From an uncultured Tateyamaria sp. (GTDB lineage: Bacteria; Pseudomonadota; Alphaproteobacteria; Rhodobacterales; Rhodobacteraceae): a DNA stretch of 64,000 nt. Made by a program: the position numbers and the translations under genes. Within the stretch, counting starts at the first letter, position 1. Each line of letters starts with the position of its first letter. The stretch spans positions 62,001-126,000 of the forward strand of contig NZ_CANNGP010000002.1 of the NCBI RefSeq assembly GCF_947504105.1, in the 5' to 3' direction. Shown one piece after another: positions 14,162 to 61,770 of this stretch. The notes beneath the pieces are model-generated. The model worked only from the letters and a program-made list of their open reading frames with translations, was not told the origin of the DNA and did not search any database.

Positions 14162-14635
14162 ATGACGTCTGCCCCCCTTACCTTACATTGGCCAACCCAA
14201 GATGATACTGCCCACGCTGCTGCAATCCTTGGCCCTGCTTTGCGCCCTGGCGATGTGGTGTTGCTTGAAGGGGATGTTGGTGCGGGCAAGACCCATTTCG
14301 CCCGCGCGCTGATTCAATCTGTGCTTATGGAACCCGAAGATGTACCGTCACCCACCTTCACACTGGTGCAAGTCTATGACACTCGGAACGGCACGCTGTG
14401 GCATACTGACCTGTACCGCGTGTCAGCAAATACCGAGGTGGATGAACTGGGCCTGATAGACGCTTTTGAAGATGCGATTTGCCTTGTCGAGTGGCCGGAT
14501 CGGCTTGGGCATTTGACACCAGATTCTGCCTTGACCATCGCCATCCAATCCAGCGGTGACGGTCGGATCGCGATGCTGCGCTGGACCGATCCACGTTGGT
14601 CAGACCGCCTGCAAGAGTTCATGTCAGATGCCTGA
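14162..14635 (+). CDS. tsaE: tRNA t6A biosynthesis ATPase TsaE
   Basis: A 157-residue P-loop ATPase (YjeE family) needed for multiple turnover of the TsaBD threonylcarbamoyl transferase complex. Walker A is EGDVGAGKTHFAR at about 36-48. The SPTFTLVQVY segment with the switch Thr and the C-terminal LVEWPDRLG Trp motif are also present. tsaD is at the left end of this window, but tsaB is not visible. The stop codon lies 8 bases inside the next gene, consistent with an operon. Confidence 0.95.
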   Translation: MTSAPLTLHWPTQDDTAHAAAILGPALRPGDVVLLEGDVGAGKTHFARALIQSVLMEPEDVPSPTFTLVQVYDTRNGTLWHTDLYRVSANTEVDELGLIDAFEDAICLVEWPDRLGHLTPDSALTIAIQSSGDGRIAMLRWTDPRWSDRLQEFMSDA

Positions 14636-35444: not shown

Positions 35445-36044
35445 TTAACCGTCAATCACTCCGCGCAGCGTCAGGAACGCCAAAAGCTCCAACAACGGCA
35501 TCCCAAGGACATTGAAATAGTCCCCTTCAATGCTGTGGAACAGGCGTACCCCCTCGGCCTCTAGCTGATATGCGCCAACTGAGTGGCGAATGTCATCCCA
35601 ATTCCGGTCGATGTACCCATCAAGATACTCATCCGACACATCTCGCATGCGCAACCGAACCTGTCCAACATGGCGCCAGATCGGTTTTCCCTCGTGGTAG
35701 ATGACCGCAGCAGACAATAGCACGTGACGCTGACCCCGCATGGCACGCAACTGCTCAGCGGCATCCATCTGGTTCACCGGTTTTGACAGAAGCCGGTTGT
35801 TGAAAGACAGAACCTGATCGCATCCGATAACCATGGAGTCCGGCTGCTTGTCCGCCACCTTGCGCGATTTCATCTCAGCCAAAGCATCGGCGATGTCGCG
35901 GGGGGATGCATCTTCTGCGAGTAAGGAAGCTTTCATATTTTCTTCATCAACACGGGGCACGATAACGTCAAATTCTATGCCCGCGTTCCGCAGCAATTGG
36001 GACCGGATGGCTGAACCCGAGGCAAGAACGATGGGGATGGTCAT
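35445..36044 (-). CDS. maf: Maf-family nucleotide pyrophosphatase
   Basis: A 199-residue Maf/HAM1-fold pyrophosphatase that hydrolyses (modified) nucleoside triphosphates. LASGSAIRSQLL (about 6-17) is the N-terminal signature, PRVDEEN near 33 holds catalytic residues, and VIGCDQVLSF near 75 the acidic pair. AAGGA lies 8 bases before the ATG at 36044, which decides the start. It is the first gene to the left of the proposed replication origin and is transcribed away from it. Confidence 0.94.
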   Translation of the reverse strand: MTIPIVLASGSAIRSQLLRNAGIEFDVIVPRVDEENMKASLLAEDASPRDIADALAEMKSRKVADKQPDSMVIGCDQVLSFNNRLLSKPVNQMDAAEQLRAMRGQRHVLLSAAVIYHEGKPIWRHVGQVRLRMRDVSDEYLDGYIDRNWDDIRHSVGAYQLEAEGVRLFHSIEGDYFNVLGMPLLELLAFLTLRGVIDG

Positions 36045-36052
36045 GTGGATAT
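36044..36052 (-). promoter_or_regulatory. DnaA-box-like site
   Basis: ATATCCACA on the minus strand, one mismatch from TTATCCACA. It touches the first base of the maf start codon, so DnaA binding could also affect maf. Confidence 0.45.
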
Positions 36053-36146
36053 CCTTGTGTGTCACACATGGTGAAGTGAGGGATCAAACAGGTGAAAACA
36101 AGCCACATGTCAGCACCGCACAAAATACCCGCGATCTTCGGCAATG

Positions 36147-36155
36147 TTCACCACA
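36147..36155 (+). promoter_or_regulatory. Weak DnaA-box-like site
   Basis: TTCACCACA, two mismatches from the consensus TTATCCACA. Confidence 0.3.
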
Positions 36156-36214
36156 AACTGTCCCGGGTGTGAAAGAATAAATGACACACTGAGGGAAACT
36201 GGTCTTATCCGAAG

Positions 36215-36223
36215 TTACCCACA
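36215..36223 (+). promoter_or_regulatory. DnaA-box-like site
   Basis: TTACCCACA, one mismatch from the consensus, about 20 bases before the AT-rich block. It is the best placed DnaA site for opening that block. Confidence 0.5.
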
Positions 36224-36240
36224 GGTTTATCAGCTTTAGC

Positions 36241-36296
36241 AATCAACCATTTTAGTTATTAAGGTATTGTTTTATATTGTATTTTTAAGTTTTCAA
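36241..36296. other. AT-rich block, candidate DNA unwinding element
   Basis: A run of mostly A and T with only scattered single G and C, unlike the rest of this GC-rich window. It lies between the DnaA-like sites at 36215 and 36358, as expected for a duplex unwinding element. Confidence 0.5.
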
Positions 36297-36357
36297 GCGG
36301 TGGAGCGCATACGTGGAAAAACATATCACACTGTGCGTAACCCCTTGGGCAAACGGT

Positions 36358-36366
36358 TAATCCACA
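36358..36366 (+). promoter_or_regulatory. DnaA-box-like site overlapping TTAACC half-site and inverted repeat
   Basis: TAATCCACA, one mismatch from the consensus. The preceding GGTTAA reads TTAACC on the other strand, like a CtrA half-site, and the inverted repeat ACAGAAATTCTGT begins inside the box. Confidence 0.42.
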
Positions 36367-36453
36367 GAAATTCTGTTCCCTACAAAATCATCATCTCTTT
36401 TCTTTCTTTTATTTATTTATAAGGGTGGCCCAGAACAAAGGGGACCAAAAAAT

Positions 36454-36900
36454 ATGGATTTCTTGATAGCCTCATATCCTTGGATCAAGGCATTCCATAT
36501 CATGTCGGTCATCGCATGGATGGCGGCCTTGTTCTATCTGCCAAGGCTATATGTCTACCACTCAGAAAGCGTTGGACTTGAGGGTGAGACACACGCGCTG
36601 TTCCAGACCATGGAGTACAAGCTTCTCAAGATCATCATGAATCCGGCTATGATCGCAACCTGGATCTTCGGGCTCCTTCTGGCCTTGATCCCTGGTGTGA
36701 TCGACTGGGGAGCTTTGTGGCCCTGGACCAAGTTGATCGGCATTCTTGCTATGTCCGGCTTCCATGGTTGGCTGTCCGCACAGCGCAAGGCATTTGCTGC
36801 CGGGGGTCCGATCAAAACAGGGCGGCAGTACAGAATGATGAATGAGGTACCCACGCTTCTGATGGTGCTGATTATCCTCTCTGTTGTGGTGAAATTCTGA
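36454..36900 (+). CDS. hemJ: Protoporphyrinogen IX oxidase HemJ
   Basis: A 148-residue membrane protein with about four helices, oxidising protoporphyrinogen IX to protoporphyrin IX. The conserved His in KAFHIMSVIAWMAALFYLPRLYVYH (about 12-36) and the late QRKAF/GGRQYRMMNE segments match HemJ. AAGGGGA precedes the ATG. It is the first gene right of the proposed origin and is transcribed away from it. Confidence 0.93.
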   Translation: MDFLIASYPWIKAFHIMSVIAWMAALFYLPRLYVYHSESVGLEGETHALFQTMEYKLLKIIMNPAMIATWIFGLLLALIPGVIDWGALWPWTKLIGILAMSGFHGWLSAQRKAFAAGGPIKTGRQYRMMNEVPTLLMVLIILSVVVKF

Positions 36901-37023: not shown

Positions 37024-38295
37024 ATGACCGCAGAACGCCTCGCCCTTGCTGAACTCAAGGCGCAAAGCCCCAAAGACCTCCTTGCAACGGCAGAGGAGCT
37101 GGAAATTGAAAACGCCTCGACCATGCGGAAGGGCGAGATGATGTTCCAGATTCTGCGCGAACGCGCAGATGAAGGGTGGGAGATTTCAGGTGATGGTGTG
37201 CTGGAAGTCCTGCAGGACGGCTTTGGCTTCCTGCGTTCGCCTGAGGCAAACTATCTGCCGGGCCCGGATGACATCTATGTCTCGCCCGAGATGATCCGCC
37301 AATACTCGCTGCGTACTGGGGATACGATCGAAGGGGTGATCAAAGCTCCTGATGATAGCGAACGTTACTTCGCGTTGACCAATGCGACAAAGATCAACTT
37401 TGAAGAGCCGGAAAAAGCGAAGCACAAGATTGCCTTTGATAACTTGACGCCGCTTTATCCAGACGAGCGTTTGACGATGGAAACAGATGATCCCGCGACC
37501 AAGGACCGGTCGGCCCGGATCATCGACCTTGTATCGCCTATCGGTAAAGGTCAGCGATCCCTGATCGTGGCTCCGCCGCGGACAGGTAAGACAGTTCTTC
37601 TACAGAACATTGCGTCCAGCATCGAAAAGAACCATCCAGAGTGCTACTTGATTGTTCTGCTGATCGATGAACGGCCCGAAGAGGTCACGGACATGCAGCG
37701 GTCGGTCAAAGGAGAGGTCGTCAGCTCAACATTCGATGAACCAGCAACACGCCACGTTGCCGTGTCTGAAATGGTGATCGAGAAGGCAAAGCGTTTGGTT
37801 GAGCACAAACGAGATGTTGTTATTCTTTTGGACTCGATCACAAGACTTGGTAGGGCATTCAACACTGTGGTGCCATCCTCGGGTAAGGTTTTGACCGGTG
37901 GTGTGGATGCAAATGCCTTGCAACGCCCCAAACGTTTCTTCGGTGCGGCCCGGAATATCGAGGAAGGTGGATCGTTGACCATCGTCGCAACTGCCTTGAT
38001 TGACACGGGTAGCCGGATGGACGAGGTCATCTTTGAAGAATTCAAGGGCACCGGTAACTCGGAAATCGTCTTGGATCGCAAGATCGCCGACAAACGCGTG
38101 TTCCCTGCTATCGATATCCTCAAATCCGGCACTCGGAAAGAGGATCTGCTGGTCGACAAGAACGATCTGGCCAAGACCTTTGTTCTGCGGCGCATCCTGA
38201 ACCCAATGGGTACAACAGATGCGATCGAGTTCCTGATCTCCAAACTCAAGCAGACCAAGACAAACGGCGAATTCTTCGATTCCATGAACACCTGA
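37024..38295 (+). CDS. rho: Transcription termination factor Rho
   Basis: A 423-residue hexameric RNA-DNA helicase. The N-terminal Rho domain is at 1-45, the primary RNA-binding cold-shock-like fold (DGFGFLRSP near 66) follows, and the ATPase has Walker [12 protein letters not shown] near 180 and Walker [15 protein letters not shown] with the Q-loop/R-loop residues after it. Length is normal. It is preceded by a promoter-like sequence and followed by mnmE after 22 bases. Confidence 0.98.
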
Positions 38296-39605: not shown

Positions 39606-41474
39606 GTGTTTCACGTGAAACATTTTGATGTTGTGGTTATCGGTGGTGGAAACGCTGGGACCGAAGCGGCGCATGCTGCGGCGCGGATGGGCGCGTCAAC
39701 TGTATTGGTGACGATGAAGATTTCTGGGATCGGCGTTATGTCCTGCAATCCGGCCATTGGCGGCTTGGGAAAGGGGCATCTCGTACGTGAAATCGATGCA
39801 ATGGATGGAATCATGGGCCGCGTTGCCGATGCGTCTGGTATTCAATTTCGTTTATTGAACCGGCGCAAAGGTCCTGCTGTTCAAGGGCCACGTACGCAAT
39901 CGGATCGCGCTGTATATCAGAAAACCATGCTGCACATCATGCAGAACACGGAGAACCTTACAGTTGTTGAAGGCGAAGTGATCGATTTCCGCATGGATGG
40001 CGATAGAGTAGTAGGCGTATGTCTGGCTGACGATTCAGAGATTTTGGCAGATGCGGTTATTTTGACCACAGGTACATTCCTGCGCGGCACCATCCATATC
40101 GGCGATAAATCTTACCCGGGCGGGCGCATGGGGGATGAGGCGTCAGTTCCACTTGCCGATCGAATAGACGGCTTTGCCCTTCCCACGGGGCGTTTGAAAA
40201 CCGGCACGCCACCGCGATTGGATGCACGGACAATCAACTGGGGTGGATTGGATCAGCAAGAGGCGGACAGCGATCCTTCTCTCTTCTCCTTTATGTCCAC
40301 TACGGCACCTCTAAGACAGATCGCCTGCGGTATCACACATACAAATTCCAAAACTCATGACATCATTCGTGATAACCTTAACCGATCCGCCATGTATGGC
40401 GGCCATATCGAGGGCGTCGGCCCCAGGTACTGCCCGTCCATCGAGGATAAGATTGTGCGATTTGCTGATAAGGACTCGCACCAAATATTTCTTGAGCCTG
40501 AGGGGCTGAATGATCACACGATTTATCCGAACGGTATTTCTACATCTTTGCCTGAGGGCGTGCAGTTGGACTATATTCAGTCGATTGTGGGCTTGGAACA
40601 GGCCAAGATCCTGCAACCGGGCTATGCAATTGAGTACGACTATGTGGATCCGCGCGTTTTAAGCGCGGACCTGTCTCTCCGAAATGTTCCCGGACTGTTC
40701 CTTGCGGGGCAGATCAACGGCACAACCGGTTATGAGGAAGCGGCTGCGCAGGGTTTAGTGGCCGGATTGAACGCCGCACAGTGGGTACAGGGTAGGGATC
40801 CAGTGCATTTCCGTCGTGATCAAAGCTACATCGGTGTGATGATCGACGATCTGACCACCCGCGGCGTTACGGAGCCTTATCGTATGTTTACCTCACGCGC
40901 TGAGTTCCGCCTGTCGCTGCGCGCGGACAATGCGGATCAGCGGTTGACCCAGCTTGGTCGGGACTTGGGCTGCGTATCCGATGTGCGCATGTCAGTGTTT
41001 GCGGCAAAAAATGATCAACTCGCGGCGATGAGGGGCTGCCTGGGCGAAACCGAGTTCACTCCAAAGCAAATCGCGGCCCAGGGAATCCGGATCAACCAGG
41101 ACGGAATAAAGCGTACGCCGTTTCAGGTGCTGGCTTTTCCGGATGTGACGTTCGAGCAGGTCGCTGGCCTTGTGCCGGACGTGTTGCAGTTTCCAAAGGA
41201 AATCCAAGCGCAGGTCGCGCGGGACGCACTTTACGCCAATTATATCGCGCGACAGCAAAAAGACGTGGAAAAGCTGCGGAAAGACGAGCAACTTAAAATC
41301 CCCAAGGGCGTTGACTACTCCGTAATTTCTGGATTGTCCGCAGAACTTCAGAGTAAGTTGTCGCGTGTTCAGCCCGCTGACCTGGCGCAAGCTGCGCGGA
41401 TCGACGGAATGACACCCGCGGCGCTCGCGCTTATTCTTGGCCGCATTCGACTTTTGGAAAAGAAGTCAGCATGA
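39606..41474 (+). CDS. mnmG: tRNA uridine-5-carboxymethylaminomethyl modification enzyme MnmG
   Basis: A 622-residue FAD protein, partner of MnmE. The FAD-binding [17 protein letters not shown] is near 13-29, followed by the family signature [20 protein letters not shown] and later [11 protein letters not shown]. The start is unusual: GTG at 39606 and the alternative GTG at 39615 both lie in a perfect parS site, which encodes FHVKH. The second start has GGAG 8 bases upstream and gives [12 protein letters not shown], so it may be the true one. Also called gidA. Overlaps rsmG by 4 bases. Confidence 0.97.
39607..39622. promoter_or_regulatory. parS: parS site 1 (ParB-binding centromere), over the mnmG start
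   Basis: TGTTTCACGTGAAACA, a perfect 16-bp palindrome identical to the canonical chromosomal parS. It lies over the mnmG translation start and 2.5 kb from parA. ParB bound here would load the segregation complex close to the origin. Confidence 0.97.
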
Positions 41475-42082
41475 TGCAGGTACCAGGGTGGTGGGACCAG
41501 AATGTTTCACGTGAAACACTGGACAAGCTGCAGGGCTATGCGGCGCTGATCCGCAAATGGACACCAAAGATCAACCTTGTTGCCAAGTCGACCATAGACG
41601 ACATCGAGGCACGGCATATTTGGGACAGTGCTCAAATACACACGTCTCGACAGGGCGTTTGGGCTGATTTAGGCAGTGGAGGCGGGCTACCCGGAGTAGT
41701 TGTCGCGATCTTTGCACAGGCGGATGGGCTAGATGCGGCGGTCACTCTGGTTGAAAGTGATCAACGTAAAGCAACCTTTCTAAGGACATGCGCGCGCGAG
41801 CTGGATCTGCCAATGAAAGTTGTAGCGCAACGTGTTGAAGACGTGCAGGGACTTCAGGCTCAGACAATCTCGGCACGCGCACTGGCGCCTCTGGACTCTT
41901 TGCTGTCTCTGGCGAAACCGCATGTTGCGAAGTGCGGGTTGTGCCTGTTTCAAAAGGGAGCGCATTGGCAGGAAGAAGTTGAAGCCGCGCAGCAAAACTG
42001 GCGGTTTTCATATGATGCGATGCCAAGTAAAACAAATGCAGAAGCAGTAGTCCTCAAAATCAAGGATGTCACGCGTGTCTGA
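41471..42082 (+). CDS. rsmG: 16S rRNA (guanine527-N7)-methyltransferase RsmG
   Basis: A 203-residue SAM-dependent methyltransferase (GidB). The SAM-binding loop [11 protein letters not shown] is near 66-76, [26 protein letters not shown] is the family N-terminus and [12 protein letters not shown] lies near 135. The VSRET stretch is encoded by a second parS site. Start and stop overlap mnmG (4 bases) and parA (17 bases). Confidence 0.97.
41504..41519. promoter_or_regulatory. parS: parS site 2 (ParB-binding centromere), inside rsmG
   Basis: A second perfect TGTTTCACGTGAAACA, 1.9 kb from the first. It lies near the start of rsmG and encodes the N-x-VSRET part of the protein. parS sites in this gene are known in other bacteria. 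Confidence 0.97.
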
Positions 42083-42884
42083 TCCGACGCGCCCACCCGG
42101 GCCCAAGATTATCTCCGTTGCAAATCAAAAGGGAGGTGTGGGTAAGACCACGACCACCATCAACTTGGCAGCCGCCCTTGTGGAAATTGGAAGCCGAGTG
42201 CTTGTGGTGGATCTGGATCCACAGGGGAACGCGTCCACGGGCCTTGGGGTCGAGATGGAAGATCGGGAGCTTACTACATATGATCTTCTGTTGGACGATG
42301 TTCCGTTGAACGATGTCATCTTGGCGACCGACATCGATGATCTGGCAATTGTTCCTGCAACAGTTGATCTGAGTTCGGCGGACATTGAGTTGATTTCGAA
42401 CGAGAAGCGCAGCTTCCTGTTACATGACGCATTGCGGCAGACAGATATGGATGCCTATGGTTTTGACTTCATTCTAATTGACTGTCCGCCATCGCTGAAT
42501 TTGCTAACGGTAAATGCAATGATCGCGTCGGATTCAGTACTTGTGCCGCTCCAAAGCGAGTTCTTTGCATTGGAAGGGTTGTCGCAGTTGATGCTGACGG
42601 TCCGGGAGGTGCGGCAGACCGGCAATCCGAACCTCCGGATTGAGGGTGTGGTGTTGACGATGCACGATGCGCGAAACAATCTCTCCCAACAGGTCGAGCA
42701 AGACGCACGCGATAACCTGGGAGATATCGTTTTCAAAACGCGAATTCCGCGCAACGTAAGGGTCAGTGAGGCACCGTCCTATGCGATGCCGGTGTTGTCA
42801 TATGACAGCACCTCAAAAGGCGCGGTGGCTTATCGGGATCTGGCTAAGGAATTGGTCGCCAATAATGCAGCAGTGGGAGCCTGA
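42066..42884 (+). CDS. parA: Chromosome partitioning ATPase ParA
   Basis: A 272-residue deviant Walker ATPase that forms the nucleoid gradient pulling ParB-parS complexes apart. The deviant P-loop KGGVGKTTTT is near 21-30, VVDLDPQGN near 50 and LIDCPPSL near 140. The ATG at 42066 overlaps rsmG by 17 bases; a GTG at 42075 is an alternative. parB follows after one base. Confidence 0.96.
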   Translation: MSRVSDPTRPPGPKIISVANQKGGVGKTTTTINLAAALVEIGSRVLVVDLDPQGNASTGLGVEMEDRELTTYDLLLDDVPLNDVILATDIDDLAIVPATVDLSSADIELISNEKRSFLLHDALRQTDMDAYGFDFILIDCPPSLNLLTVNAMIASDSVLVPLQSEFFALEGLSQLMLTVREVRQTGNPNLRIEGVVLTMHDARNNLSQQVEQDARDNLGDIVFKTRIPRNVRVSEAPSYAMPVLSYDSTSKGAVAYRDLAKELVANNAAVGA

Positions 42885-47996: not shown

Positions 47997-48030
47997 ACAA
48001 AGACGCGGTCAGGACTTGGCCGCGTCTTTC
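47997..48030. terminator. Bidirectional terminator between grpE and mutS
   Basis: AAAGACGCGG, an 11-base loop and CCGCGTCTTT form a perfect 10-bp stem with A and T flanks usable from both sides. It spans the mutS stop codon. Confidence 0.85.
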
Positions 48031-50639
48031 AGTTTGTAGATCATGTCGAGCGCTTCCCGCGGTGTCAGCTGGTCGGGATGGACGTCCTCAAGCATCTCCA
48101 AAGCGGGCGAATTTACTGTTTTCACGGGTTGAGGCGTTGGTGTGGCCGAGAACAGCGGTAGATCATCGATCAGGGTTTTCTGCGTCGCACCTCCTTCGCG
48201 TTCCCCACTCTCCAATGCATCCAGAACGACGCGCGCGCGAGCAATCACGGCCGGGGGAAGCCCGGCCAATTGTGCGACCTGCACGCCGTAGGATCTGTCT
48301 GCCGCCCCGCGCTTCACCTCATGCAGGAAAATGACCTCGCCATCCCATTCCTTGACCGAAACCGTTGCATTCTCGACCCCGTCCAGCTTGCCAGCCAGTG
48401 CCGTCATTTCGTGATAATGCGTTGCGAACAACGCGCGTGACTTGTTCACGTCGTGCAGATGCTCCAGCGTCGCCCATGCAATCGATAACCCGTCATAGGT
48501 GGCTGTTCCGCGTCCGATCTCGTCCAGAATGACCAATGCACGATCATCTGCCTGGTTCAGGATCGCAGCTGTTTCCACCATCTCGACCATGAAAGTGGAC
48601 CGTCCGCGTGCCAAGTCATCAGATGCGCCCACACGGCTGAAAATTTGGCTGACCAGACCGATATGCGCGGATCGCGCCGGAACGAAACTGCCCATCTGTG
48701 CGAGGATCGCGATCAAGGCGTTTTGCCGCAGGAAGGTCGACTTACCAGACATGTTTGGTCCGGTCAGAAGCCATACAGCTGCTGCATCATCGGCATTCAA
48801 CTCGCAATCGTTGGCGATAAAGGGTGTTCCGCCTTGTCGTGACAGCGCATGTTCGACAACCGGATGGCGTCCACCGTCGATTTCGAATGCACGCGAGGTG
48901 TCGAGATCGGGTTTGCACCAGTTCTGTGACACAGCGAGATTGGCAAGCGCTGTCGCCAGATCAAACTCGGCCAGCGCGCGTGCTGTTTGGCTGATATGGG
49001 CCGCCTGATCCAAGATCAGTGATTTCAGCCCTTCGTAGAGACGTTTTTCAATTTCAAGCGCTCTGCCACCAGCGTTCAGAATTCGGGTTTCTAGGTCGGA
49101 CAGCTCGACCGTTGTAAAGCGCACCTGATTTGCAGTTGTCTGACGATGGATGAAAGTTTCGTTCAGCGGTGCCGACATCATCTTGTCCGCATGGGTGGCT
49201 GTCACTTCGATGAAGTAGCCAAGCACATTGTTATGCTTGATCTTGAGCGACTGCACGCCCGACTGTGCGGCGTAGTCCTTTTGCATCTTGGCGATGACAG
49301 ATCGACCTTCGTCCCGCAATTGGCGCGCTTCGTCCAAGTCCTGATCACAACCTGTCGCGATGAATCCACCATCGCGGGCCAACAAGGGTGGATCTGCCAC
49401 CAGGTCGTTCTCAAGGCGATCAATCAGGTCTGCGTGACCTGCCAGATCCTTGAACGCACTTTTCAAAAGTGATGGGAGTTCATTTGGTTGGGTATCGAAC
49501 AATGCCTGCGCCTGACCCAGACCGTTGCGTAGGGCGGCAAGGTCGCGCGGCCCACCTCGATCCAGAGATAGCCGGGACAGGGCACGGTCCATATCGGGCA
49601 CACGCTTCAATGAATCCCGTGTGGTTTGGGTGAAACTTGTCCCTTCGGCACAATATGCAACTGCATCCAGACGATCCGAAATCGTCTCCAGGATGCGTGA
49701 AGGCGAGGCAAGGCGCCGTTCAAGCAATCGCGCGCCTGCCGCCGTCACCGTTTGGTCGATGACAGAAAGCAACGATCCGCTTCGGCCGCCGGACAATGCG
49801 GATGTCAGCTCGAGATTGCGGCGAGTCGCGGCGTCGATCTGCACCGTTCGGGTCTGTACCTCCTGCCGCGGCGGGCGAAGCAGGGGCAATTTGCCTTTCT
49901 GCGTGATTTCAAGATACTCGACCAGCGCCCCCATTGCACCGACTTCGGCCCGCGCAAAGGTCCCAAACGCATCAAGGGTCTGGACGTTGAACAGCGCGCC
50001 CAGCCGATCCGCGCCAGCCGAGCTGTCAAAAGCGGCGCCCCCGAGTGTCGTGATCGCAATGCCAAACTCCTCGACCAAGGGGCGCAACCCTGCCTCTTTT
50101 GCATCGGTGACGATCAGCTCGGAGGGTGCGAGACGAGCCAATTCAGGCCCTAACAAGGCCAAATCAAGCGACATAACTGAAAACGCACCGGTCGAAATAT
50201 CCACCCAAGCCAGCGCACCTTGACCCCTTACATCGGCGAATGCCGCGAGGAAATTGTGTCGCCGCGCTTCAAGCAGCGTATCTTCGGTCAGGGTGCCAGG
50301 CGTCACCAATCGCACCACGTCGCGCTTCACGACGGATTTCGAACCGCGCTTTTTTGCCTCTGCCGGGCTTTCCATCTGTTCGCACACGGCGACGCGAAAC
50401 CCTTTGCGGATGAGGGTGAGCAGATATCCTTCGGCGGAATGAACAGGAACACCACACATCGGGATGTCCGCGCCGTCATGCTTGCTGCGTTTGGTCAGTG
50501 CGATGTCCAACGCTTCGGCCGCCGCGACCGCGTCGTCAAAGAACATCTCGTAAAAATCGCCCATCCGATAAAACAAGAGCGCACCGGGATGCGCCGCCTT
50601 GATCTCAAGATATTGCGCCATCATCGGCGTGACTGACAT
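48009..50639 (-). CDS. mutS: DNA mismatch repair protein MutS
   Basis: An 876-residue mismatch sensor. The N-terminal GDFYEMFFDDA with the mismatch-wedging Phe is near residue 26-36, the core and clamp follow, and the ATPase has Walker A LTGPNMSGKSTFLRQ near 630 and LVILDEIGRGTATYDG near 705, ending with the dimer/MutL part. The start at 50639 (MSVTPMMAQYLEIK) fits the family; the track ORF adds 62 unlikely residues. A second possible start is at 50666. Divergent from maeB. Confidence 0.96.
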   Translation of the reverse strand: MSVTPMMAQYLEIKAAHPGALLFYRMGDFYEMFFDDAVAAAEALDIALTKRSKHDGADIPMCGVPVHSAEGYLLTLIRKGFRVAVCEQMESPAEAKKRGSKSVVKRDVVRLVTPGTLTEDTLLEARRHNFLAAFADVRGQGALAWVDISTGAFSVMSLDLALLGPELARLAPSELIVTDAKEAGLRPLVEEFGIAITTLGGAAFDSSAGADRLGALFNVQTLDAFGTFARAEVGAMGALVEYLEITQKGKLPLLRPPRQEVQTRTVQIDAATRRNLELTSALSGGRSGSLLSVIDQTVTAAGARLLERRLASPSRILETISDRLDAVAYCAEGTSFTQTTRDSLKRVPDMDRALSRLSLDRGGPRDLAALRNGLGQAQALFDTQPNELPSLLKSAFKDLAGHADLIDRLENDLVADPPLLARDGGFIATGCDQDLDEARQLRDEGRSVIAKMQKDYAAQSGVQSLKIKHNNVLGYFIEVTATHADKMMSAPLNETFIHRQTTANQVRFTTVELSDLETRILNAGGRALEIEKRLYEGLKSLILDQAAHISQTARALAEFDLATALANLAVSQNWCKPDLDTSRAFEIDGGRHPVVEHALSRQGGTPFIANDCELNADDAAAVWLLTGPNMSGKSTFLRQNALIAILAQMGSFVPARSAHIGLVSQIFSRVGASDDLARGRSTFMVEMVETAAILNQADDRALVILDEIGRGTATYDGLSIAWATLEHLHDVNKSRALFATHYHEMTALAGKLDGVENATVSVKEWDGEVIFLHEVKRGAADRSYGVQVAQLAGLPPAVIARARVVLDALESGEREGGATQKTLIDDLPLFSATPTPQPVKTVNSPALEMLEDVHPDQLTPREALDMIYKLKDAAKS

Positions 50640-50760
50640 GACATCCCCCTGTTCGTCGCGCGACATTACAAACGGTGTGACCCGAGGAAAAGCCAAAGTC
50701 GATTGAGGCGCGGCATCCGGCAGGTTAAGACGCCATGGTGTCACGGGAGGACAGCCGCAC

Positions 50761-53016
50761 ATGAGCAAGACAAAGGTCACGCCGGAAGACGCATTGGCAT
50801 TCCACATGGAACCCACGCCCGGCAAATTCGAGATTCAGGCCACTGTGCCCATGACCACACAACGCGATCTGAGCCTTGCTTACAGCCCGGGCGTTGCCGT
50901 GCCATGTGAGGCGATCGCCGAAAACCCCGAGACGGCTTACGACTACACCAATAAGGGCAACCTTGTTGCCGTGATCTCAAACGGGACCGCTGTACTGGGT
51001 TTGGGCAATCTGGGGGCGCTGGGGTCCAAGCCGGTGATGGAAGGGAAGGCGGTTCTGTTCAAGCGCTTCGCCGACGTGAATTCCATCGATATTGAACTGG
51101 ATACCGAAGACCCGGATGCGTTCTGTCAGGCGGTCAAGCTGATGGGGCCGACCTTTGGCGGCATCAACCTCGAAGACATCAAGGCGCCTGAATGTTTCAT
51201 CATCGAACAGCGCCTGAAGGAAGAGATGGATATTCCTGTCTTCCACGACGATCAGCATGGTACCGCAGTGATCTGTGCGGCGGGATTGATCAACGCGCTG
51301 CACATCTCGGGCAAGAAGATCGAGGATGTGAAGATCGTTCTGAACGGGGCAGGGGCTGCAGGGATCGCGTGTATCGAGCTGTTGAAATCCATGGGCGCAC
51401 GGCACGAAAACTGCATTGTTTGCGATACTAAGGGCGTCATCTACCAAGGTCGGACCGAGGGGATGAACCAGTGGAAGTCAGCCCACGCGGTCAAAACTGA
51501 ACTGCGCACGCTCGAAAGCGCCATGAAGGGCGCAGACGTGTTTCTGGGCGTGTCTGTCAAAGGGGCGGTGACGCCTGCAATGGTCGAAAGCATGGGCGAC
51601 AATCCGGTCATCTTTGCAATGGCAAATCCTGATCCCGAGATTACACCCGAAGAGGCGCATGAGGTGCGGATGGATGCCATCGTTGCCACCGGGCGCAGCG
51701 ACTATCCGAACCAGGTCAACAACGTGCTTGGGTTCCCCTACCTGTTCCGCGGCGCGCTCGACATCAATGCGCGCGCTATCAATGACGAGATGAAGATTGC
51801 CTGTGCCCACGCTCTTGCTGCTTTGGCGCGCGAAGATGTGCCGGACGAAGTTGCGCTGGCCTATGGTAAATCCCTATCCTTTGGACGGGATTACATCATT
51901 CCCACGCCCTTTGACCCCCGCCTGATCCACCGCATTCCGCCTGCCGTAGCCAAGGCGGGGATGGATACCGGGGCTGCCCGCCGTCCGATCATCGACATGG
52001 AAGCGTATGAACTTAGCCTTAAGTCGCGCATGGATCCGACGGCCAGCATCCTGACCGGGATTAACGCTCGTGCCCGTGCTGCCCAAGCGCGCATGATTTT
52101 TGCCGAAGGCGATGACCCACGCGTGTTGCGTGCCGCCGTGATGTATCAGCGCAATGGATTTGGCAAGGCGCTGGTTGTAGGTCGGCAGGATGACGTTAAA
52201 GCCAAGTTGGAAGCGGCCGGTTTGGGTGACGCAGTGCGTGAGTTGGATGTGGTCAATGCTGCAAACACCACGCATCTCGATTCCTACAAGTCGCATCTGT
52301 ATGACCGTCTGAACCGCGGCGGGTTCGACCGGCAGGATATCCACCGGCTTGCCGCGCGAGACCGTCACGTGTTTGCGGCTCTCATGCTGGCACACGGACA
52401 TGGCGACGGGATTGTGACGGGTGCGACGCGCAAGTCCGCGCATATTCTGGATCGCATCGGGCACGTTTTTGATGTGGGCGAGAAAAGCAAAGCCGCGGGT
52501 GTCACCGCGCTTATTCACAAGGGGCGCATTGTCTTCATCACGGATACGCTTGTGCACGAGTGGCCGGATGAAGAGGACCTTGCTGACATCGCCGAACAAG
52601 CTGCCGTGGTGGCCCGAAACATGGGGCTTGAACCGCGCGTCGCCTTCGTCAGTTTTTCGACCTTTGGCTACCCTGTGTCTGAACGGGCGGAGAAGATGCA
52701 CAAGGCGCCAGTCGTGTTGGATCAGCGCGGTGCGGATTTTGAATACGAAGGCGAGATGACCGTCGATGTTGCTCTGAATGCTCAGGCGCAGGCGGCCTAT
52801 CCCTTCTCGCGCCTGACAGGACCGGCCAACATTCTGGTTGTGCCTGCGCGTCACTCGGCCAGCATTTCGGTCAAGTTGATGCAGGAAATGGGCGGGGCTA
52901 CGGTGATTGGCCCGATCCTTGCGGGGGTTGGCGGATCGATCCAGATCTGTTCGTCTGTTTCGACCGCAAATGATATCCTCAACATGGCCGTTCTGGCCGC
53001 GTGCAAGGTGGGCTGA
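50761..53016 (+). CDS. maeB: NADP-dependent malic enzyme, MaeB type with phosphotransacetylase-like domain
   Basis: A 751-residue fusion. Residues 1 to about 425 are malic enzyme (YSPGVAVPC near 41, HDDQHGTA near 162, and the nucleotide-binding NGAGAAGIA near 195), which makes pyruvate, CO2 and NADPH from malate. Residues from about 430 onward resemble phosphate acetyltransferase (PTA) but serve as a regulatory, acetyl-CoA-responsive domain in characterised MaeB proteins. GGGAGGA precedes the ATG. It shares one base with the next gene (TGATG). Confidence 0.95.
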
Positions 53017-60191: not shown

Positions 60192-61178
60192 ATGACACTC
60201 GGTTCGCAACTCGCGTGGGACGATACTGTCCTGCCATTCCAACTTGATGCTTCCGACATTCGCGGGCGCGTTGCGCGTCTGGACGGAGTGTTGGATGGCA
60301 TCCTGAAACAACATGACTACCCTGAACAGGTCGAAGCGCTTGTCGCGGAAATGGCCCTCCTGACCGCGCTGATTGGCCAAACAATCAAGCTGCGTTGGAA
60401 GTTGTCGCTGCAGGTTCAATCCAAGGGACCGGTGCGCATGATCGCGACTGACTACTACGGGCCTGAGAACGATGGCGATATTGCCCGCATCCGAGCCTAT
60501 GCCAGCTTTGATCGAGACCGGCTGACTGAAGGTGCCCCATTCGATCAGGTGGGTGAGGGGTACTTTGCCATCATGATTGATCAGGGCACTGACATGACCC
60601 CGTATCAGGGGATTACGCCACTCGATGGTGGATCGCTTGCGGCCTGCGCCCAGACGTATTTCGCCCAGTCCGAACAGTTGCCAACCCGCTTTCAACTGAG
60701 TTTTGGCAAATCGACCGAACCTGGCGCGCGCGAACATTGGCGCGCGGGCGGTGTGATGCTGCAACACATGCCCAAGGCGTCGCCCTTTGCTGCCACCTCC
60801 GAAGGGACAGGCGAAGTGCTGCGCTCTGACGATTTGCTTGATGGCGAAGAGTCCGAGAATTGGGGCCGCGTGAACATCCTGTTGGACACGGTTGAAGAGT
60901 TGGAATTGATCGGCCCAACGCTGGCACCGAACGATTTGCTTCTGCGTTTGTTCCATGAGGAAACGCCGCGTGTCTTTGACACGCAGCCTGTGCGTTTCGG
61001 TTGCACCTGCTCTGAAGATCGCGTGCGTCAAAGCCTGTCCATCTATTCGGCGCGGGATATTGAGAAGATGACCACCGATGACGGGCGGGTCACGGCAGAC
61101 TGCCAATTCTGCGGCGCGCATTACGATCTGGACCCGGCCAGCGTGGGATTCGAGGCGGAAACCCAAGACGGTGCCTGA
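60192..61178 (+). CDS. hslO: Redox-regulated chaperone Hsp33
   Basis: A 328-residue holdase activated by oxidation. The N-terminal domain includes QTIKLRWKLSLQVQSKGPVR near 64-83, and the C-terminal zinc switch shows GCTCSED and, 30 residues on, CQFCGAHYDLDP (C-x-C and C-x-x-C). The start at 60192 (MTLGSQLAWDD) follows the family; the track ORF extends 26 residues without support. Its stop overlaps the next NUDIX gene by 8 bases. Confidence 0.95.
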   Translation: MTLGSQLAWDDTVLPFQLDASDIRGRVARLDGVLDGILKQHDYPEQVEALVAEMALLTALIGQTIKLRWKLSLQVQSKGPVRMIATDYYGPENDGDIARIRAYASFDRDRLTEGAPFDQVGEGYFAIMIDQGTDMTPYQGITPLDGGSLAACAQTYFAQSEQLPTRFQLSFGKSTEPGAREHWRAGGVMLQHMPKASPFAATSEGTGEVLRSDDLLDGEESENWGRVNILLDTVEELELIGPTLAPNDLLLRLFHEETPRVFDTQPVRFGCTCSEDRVRQSLSIYSARDIEKMTTDDGRVTADCQFCGAHYDLDPASVGFEAETQDGA

Positions 61179-61770
61179 TCTTCTTGACCAAACACGTGCG
61201 GCGCTTGAGCGATCAGGCGCCGCATCCTCGGATTTTGATCTGAACAGCGGGATCACCTTGCCTGCTGGTCGCAAGCTGCGCCCCGCAGCCGTGCTTGCGC
61301 CCATCATTGAAGGGCGAAACGGCTACGAGCTGATCCTAACGAAACGGTCTTCTGCGCTTAAACATCACCCGGGGCAGATCGCCTTTCCCGGTGGTAAGCG
61401 CGATGACGATGATGTCGATCTTGTTGCCACCGCTTTACGTGAAGCGCGCGAGGAAATTGGCCTGCACGATCACAATGTCGATGTGCTAGGTACATTTGCG
61501 CCGCATGAAACTGTCACGTCCTTTACTGTGACGCCTGTCGTCGCGCTCGTGAAGAACGAGTTTGGGGTTAATCCGGAAGCGGGCGAAGTGTCAGAGGTTT
61601 TTCGCGTGCCCCTGTCACATGTCCTGACGCCTGACAACTACGTGATCGAAGCACGCAGGTGGCGCGGGCAAAAGCGGATGTACTACACGGTTCCCTACGG
61701 CCCCTATTACATCTGGGGCGCAACCGCGCGTATATTGCGTGCATGGACCGACTTACTGCCACCCTCCTAG
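61171..61770 (+). CDS. NUDIX hydrolase, CoA pyrophosphatase type
   Basis: A 199-residue NUDIX protein. The motif LTKRSSALKHHPGQIAFPGGK near 70-90 is the NuCoA signature upstream of the Nudix box, which reads GGKRDDDDVDLVATALREAREEIGL. It probably hydrolyses CoA or oxidised CoA to phosphopantetheine and 3',5'-ADP. The start is GTG at 61171, overlapping hslO; upstream codons in the track lie inside hslO. It overlaps the following gene by 28 bases. Confidence 0.88.
   Translation: MPDLLDQTRAALERSGAASSDFDLNSGITLPAGRKLRPAAVLAPIIEGRNGYELILTKRSSALKHHPGQIAFPGGKRDDDDVDLVATALREAREEIGLHDHNVDVLGTFAPHETVTSFTVTPVVALVKNEFGVNPEAGEVSEVFRVPLSHVLTPDNYVIEARRWRGQKRMYYTVPYGPYYIWGATARILRAWTDLLPPS

Follow-up and report, generated by a model that had tools for sequence, protein, structure and literature searches.

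A probable chromosomal replication origin with a conserved core element in the maf-hemJ gap of a Tateyamaria genome

The 409-bp non-coding region between maf and hemJ (36045–36453; hereinafter the gap) of an uncultured Tateyamaria sp. is very probably the single chromosomal origin (oriC). The gap lies in the window, the 64,000-nt stretch analysed here (C2:62001–126000), on the ~220-kb contig C2 of a 214-contig, 4.76-Mb draft genome, whose closest named HemJ relatives belong to Tateyamaria species (80–94% identity), followed by Roseobacter and Sulfitobacter. An initial sequence-only reading had placed a probable origin here, a proposal strengthened by a keto-skew minimum inside the gap, a unique cluster of DnaA boxes, conserved length and core, and a skew switch in relatives. 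Judged by these computational features, the gap is well supported as a known kind of site, an oriC, whose family core is well defined and whose flanking genes have a clear history. For Tateyamaria this narrows the origin to ~400 bp, of which ~65 bp are the likely melting site.

The gap, its neighbours and replication-strand skew

The genes maf (Maf-like nucleotide pyrophosphatase; 35448–36044, minus strand, start codon at 36042–36044) and hemJ (protoporphyrinogen oxidase; 36454–36900, plus strand, starting at 36454) diverge from the gap, with rho (37024–38295) and parA (42066–42884) further to the right, both on the plus strand. NCBIfam confirmed HemJ, Maf, AroE, CoaE, DnaQ, SecB, Rho, MnmE, MnmG and ParA, and RsmG and ParB are named from their open reading frames only. 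Two perfect parS sites (TGTTTCACGTGAAACA) lie 3–5 kb from the gap on its right side, one inside the start of mnmG (39607–39622, MFHVKH codons) and the other inside the start of rsmG (41503–41518, NVSRET codons). The coordinates, divergent flanks and AT-richness of the gap are as originally described, and the claim that it is the largest non-coding stretch holds at this level of care: larger candidates from a crude gene picker proved to be missed genes, namely mutS (48009–50825), a NUDIX gene (61078–61770), tsaE (14162–14635) and dnaQ.

The cumulative keto skew of the 220-kb contig reaches its minimum at C2:98249 (window position 36249), inside the gap, whereas the cumulative curve for GC skew alone is lowest at C2:44402, ~54 kb from the gap and 7 kb from dnaA. 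The trough is broad, spanning about C2:45–115 kb, and skew therefore gives the region rather than pinpointing the gap. With this modest resolution, the gap lies at the replication-strand skew minimum, one of the features by which an oriC is recognized.

Relatives with longer contiguous sequence show the same polarity. On the 3.86-Mb contig of a same-genus genome (G062), the keto skew has the expected sign in 16 of 20 spaced 20-kb samples, being mostly positive right of the locus and mostly negative left of it, with a sharp switch ~1.8 Mb away, near the antipode, and a local minimum ~1.2 kb from the gap. In a closed genome of the family (G050), 14 of 17 skew samples agree with an origin at the locus, and the 60-kb local minima lie 22–32 kb off the gap.

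In many bacteria, the origin is found at the dnaA-dnaN-recF locus. Here this cluster (C2:51451–55754) sits on the same contig, 47 kb from the gap, and the GC-only skew minimum is nearer to dnaA than to the gap. The true origin could accordingly lie at C2:51.4–55.8 kb and the gap be merely origin-proximal, which we consider highly improbable: every one-mismatch DnaA box on the contig is more than 4 kb away from dnaA, neither a box cluster nor a very weak duplex lies upstream of it, the keto-skew minimum of the contig and the local minimum of G062 fall in or close to the gap, and the core element described below is found in the gap alone in this genome.

DnaA boxes and the hemJ-proximal core

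Three DnaA boxes, each with one mismatch to TTATCCACA, fall within 450 bp: ATATCCACA (36044–36052, minus strand), which overlaps the maf start codon, TTACCCACA (36215–36223, plus strand) and the core box TAATCCACA (36358–36366, plus strand). This is the sole such interval on the 220-kb contig, where ~0.015 are expected and every other 450-bp interval holds at most one one-mismatch box; a better cluster elsewhere, named by the sequence-only reading as one of the findings that would speak against an origin here, does not occur on this contig. The same reading had listed a fourth 9-mer, TTCACCACA (36147–36155, plus strand), which differs at two positions, lacks conservation and drops out. Two mismatches are also present in the weak DnaA-like sites TTACGCACA (36332–36340, minus strand), whose G.G...A pattern is partly conserved, and TTTTCCACG (36312–36320, minus strand) and TTATCCGAA (36205–36213, plus strand), which are not conserved. 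Relatives carry TTATCCACA itself 220–239 bp before hemJ, corresponding to the box at 36215. Several congeners have TTATCCACA at the maf start codon, and DnaA may therefore also influence maf expression.

In a set of 93 orthologous gaps, which are not independent of one another (Sulfitobacter and Roseobacter are well represented; other Tateyamaria from the genus search were removed), TAATCCACA is the most enriched 9-mer in a count that assumes no motif (49 observed versus 0.25 expected), and 45 of its 49 occurrences lie 90–99 bp before hemJ. In the same set, TTATCCACA is observed 35 times (0.3 expected) and ATCATCATC 41 times (0.6 expected), the latter 60–69 bp before hemJ in nearly all occurrences. 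The boxes had been regarded as imperfect and weak, and none is indeed a perfect TTATCCACA, but the box at 36358 is not a degraded one, because it is the top-enriched 9-mer of these gaps and occupies a fixed place; imperfect against the E. coli sequence, TAATCCACA is, by these counts, the Rhodobacteraceae's own conserved consensus box.

Perfect TTATCCACA was rejected as an origin marker, with none in the gap and pairs elsewhere in the genome. One locus (C8:96745–96765, minus strand) holds perfect head-to-tail boxes (96745/96757) in the arrangement TTATCCACA-GGA-TAATCCACA, between nusG and an OmpA-like gene and away from the origin; it may serve in DnaA regulation or titration. At another, 77 bp separate two perfect TTATCCACA boxes (C1:123683 and C1:123760) that lie upstream of an exonuclease III-like gene.

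Both ends of the gap are conserved among aligned Rhodobacteraceae, and the most conserved part is the stretch 30–95 bp before hemJ. In its core, a spacer separates TTAATCCACAG from CCCTAC, and ATCATCATC comes three bases later, followed by a T-rich run and TTTATTTATTTAT. Within it lie the conserved CCCTAC-AAA-ATCATCATC element (36378–36395, plus strand), a trinucleotide repeat resembling DnaA-trios, and the T-rich/TTTATTTATTTAT tract that we propose as the DNA unwinding element (36384–36423). A strict form of the core, ATCCACAG-N8-16-CTAC-N3-ATCATCATC, occurs once in the Tateyamaria genome, in the gap. Of 199 family genomes, 11 match it, each a single time; a reversed control of this pattern matched neither the Tateyamaria genome nor the 199 family genomes. 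Relaxed forms are commoner than the strict one.

When the contig is ranked by 40-bp duplex stability, the weakest duplex is a mid-gap AT block (36249–36288, –39.0 kcal/mol) and the second weakest is the proposed unwinding element (–40.7 kcal/mol), both within the gap, so that the DnaA-box cluster stands beside an AT-rich, easily melted tract, as is typical of an oriC. The mid-gap block had been singled out by the sequence-only reading, but the strongest conservation adjoins hemJ instead (36358–36423). In the family AT profile, the mid-gap peak (0.77 AT) is accompanied by a hemJ-proximal peak of 0.88 AT. The former coincides with an IHF-like site, AAACAATACCTTA (36260–36272, minus strand), which has one mismatch to WATCAANNNNTTR. 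Matches with at most one mismatch are present in 62 of the 93 gaps versus 38 ± 4 in shuffles, and 41 matches lie on the strand of the window's site, 180–209 bp before hemJ. Since the mid-gap peak coincides with this enriched site and an ihfA-type gene is present in the genome, we read the mid-gap block mainly as a predicted IHF bend: it is probably in large part an IHF site with its flank, and may aid melting.

An origin in which melting begins in the mid-gap block, with the hemJ-proximal element secondary, would agree with the slightly weaker duplex there. We regard this variant as unlikely; the block is poorly conserved except for its IHF-like core, and the hemJ-proximal tract, which is the family AT peak, follows the most conserved box and the trinucleotide element. 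The hemJ-end core, TTAATCCACAG...ATCATCATC-T-rich, is thus read as the candidate DnaA loading and melting site. That the hemJ-proximal tract is the unwinding element is something we infer, since the mid-gap block is marginally the weaker duplex.

Flanking genes and conservation among relatives

The order maf-gap-hemJ-rho-mnmE is highly conserved in Rhodobacteraceae, and the orthologous gap measures 400–415 bp at most loci. The flanks had been described as Caulobacter-like with hemE missing. While hemE is indeed absent from the locus and lies on contig C23, COG1806 (PPPase, PF03618) has gone as well, with no match in the 214-contig draft, leaving maf and hemJ as the flanking genes. Relatives display intermediate arrangements: maf-COG1806-gap-hemE at a locus of another alphaproteobacterial family (L225), maf-COG1806-gap-hemJ (L088) and maf-gap-hemE-hemJ-rho (L080, L147 and L152). 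In 11 family genomes, the gap lies between maf and rho without hemJ; the strict core is still present in G008 and G047, and 10 of the 11 have a distant HemJ-like protein elsewhere, none being found in the other (G022). That the flanking-gene change was loss and not gain is suggested by how much more widely the hemE arrangement occurs, rather than by a tree. The gap is therefore conserved across relatives independently of its flanking genes, another hallmark of an oriC. An origin can stay in place after losing both of its textbook boundary genes, and boundary-gene rules for alphaproteobacterial origins are thus unreliable here.

The same comparison bears on whether the gap is instead the divergent maf/hemJ promoter region, with regulatory DnaA boxes and an AT tract that serves as promoter or leader. 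Such a role would fit the DnaA box on the maf start codon and the position of the element ~95 bp upstream of hemJ, yet the element is kept upstream of rho in G008 and G047, and this survival of the core through flank changes counts against a hemJ promoter. The conserved length of the gap also argues against this explanation, which moreover leaves the skew switch unaccounted for, and no sigma-70-like promoter is seen near the gap, although alphaproteobacterial promoters may differ. We consider a pure promoter role extremely unlikely. A search for a terminator near the gap found none.

At a few inspected loci of other alphaproteobacterial families, similar box-plus-repeat stretches precede hemE. 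When one tandem-box version was searched for across the class, 3 of 289 genomes matched, the query being too specific, and the case for a core conserved outside the family therefore rests on those few loci. Within the family, the gap, read as an origin, carries a short sequence for starting and melting that is traceable through much of the Rhodobacteraceae even where the neighbouring genes changed. A Roseobacter-like maf-hemJ locus (69% HemJ identity) was also seen on a contig labelled as a Nitrospira MAG (JAAUPT010000331.1), which is probably mis-binned.

Proposed opening mechanism and comparison with known origins

The location and conserved anatomy of the origin come from sequence analysis, and its working can be pictured from them as follows. 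DnaA would bind three boxes, one at the maf start, one at 36215 and, at 36358, the core box TAATCCACA, and IHF would bend the middle of the gap at 36260–36272, joining the left boxes and the intervening weak sites to the core box. From there, a DnaA filament would grow to the right, passing over CCCTAC-AAA-ATCATCATC and onto a single strand, and melt the T-rich/TTATT tract (36384–36423), where the helicase would be loaded. Initiation would then send forks both ways, with ParB binding the two parS sites 3–5 kb to the right.

Ori-Finder predictions for 101 Rhodobacteraceae place oriC near parAB in low-GC sequence with motifs including TTATCCACA and TGTGGATAT, and leave eight strains without an assigned origin (PMC6699656). 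The passages of that survey consulted here describe neither a core element nor a flanking-gene series such as those found here. The core provides a motif that can be searched for in this family, where predicting the origin is not always successful. A non-exhaustive literature search surfaced no work on DnaA-trios in Rhodobacterales or on a Tateyamaria origin.

In Caulobacter crescentus, the origin (Cori) is bounded by hemE and COG1806 (PMC1914354). The Tateyamaria gap shares with it the neighbourhood, an intergenic region of ~400 bp, an AT-rich tract and nearby parAB, and its candidate IHF site, which has one mismatch and is positionally enriched in the family gaps, may correspond to the one IHF site of Cori (PMC1914354, PMC4285127). 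The DnaA box varies at position 2, the Caulobacter G-box being TGATCCACA (PMC4285127) and the box of the gap TAATCCACA. Unlike Cori, the Tateyamaria locus has lost both boundary genes and is flanked by maf and hemJ, and no TTAA-N7-TTAA site is found in the gap, compared with five CtrA sites in Cori; the gap also contains no GANTC site, and CtrA control of this origin was discarded as unsupported. The hemE/COG1806 flanks and CtrA sites that mark a Cori-type origin are thus both absent. The E. coli oriC (PMC4285127 and general knowledge) resembles the gap in having boxes of differing strength, one IHF site (predicted in the gap) and an AT-rich DUE beside a strong box, and differs in sequence, gene context and order, with no 13-mers demonstrated in the gap.

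The hemJ-proximal core invites comparison with the basal unwinding system (BUS), in which three or more 3'-NAN-5' trios, with the consensus 3'-GAT-5', come after a DnaA box at a distance of no more than 16 nt (PMC8287927). Common to both are a DnaA box (tandem in some relatives), a spacer, a trinucleotide repeat and an AT-rich tract in one orientation and at fixed spacing. In contrast to the BUS, the repeat of the gap reads 3'-TAG-5', and the core box is 20 nt from it, above the 16-nt limit (PMC8287927), the window's second box, before the repeat, being degenerate; on this reading the core would work like a BUS, of which it is a candidate member. A box lies within 16 nt of the repeat in 25 of the 73 relatives' gaps that have the repeat, and a second box stands 5–6 nt from it at L021, L023, L042, L154 and L159. 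At L023, the head-to-tail boxes, TAATCCACA-TTCTCCACA-GACCC-AACAACAACAACATC, resemble the Bacillus BUS (PMC8287927). We tentatively suggest, as a possibility that falls somewhat short of an even chance, that origin opening in Rhodobacteraceae, and perhaps in further Alphaproteobacteria, uses a box-plus-trinucleotide version of their own. In it, TAATCCACA, alone or as the first of two head-to-tail boxes, would be joined by a short GC-rich spacer to a CTAC/(A)AC/ATC repeat, with phase and spacing unlike Bacillus trios, in a core that stayed as the adjoining COG1806, hemE and then hemJ were lost. The Tateyamaria gap offers a concrete test case for whether such opening operates in Alphaproteobacteria.
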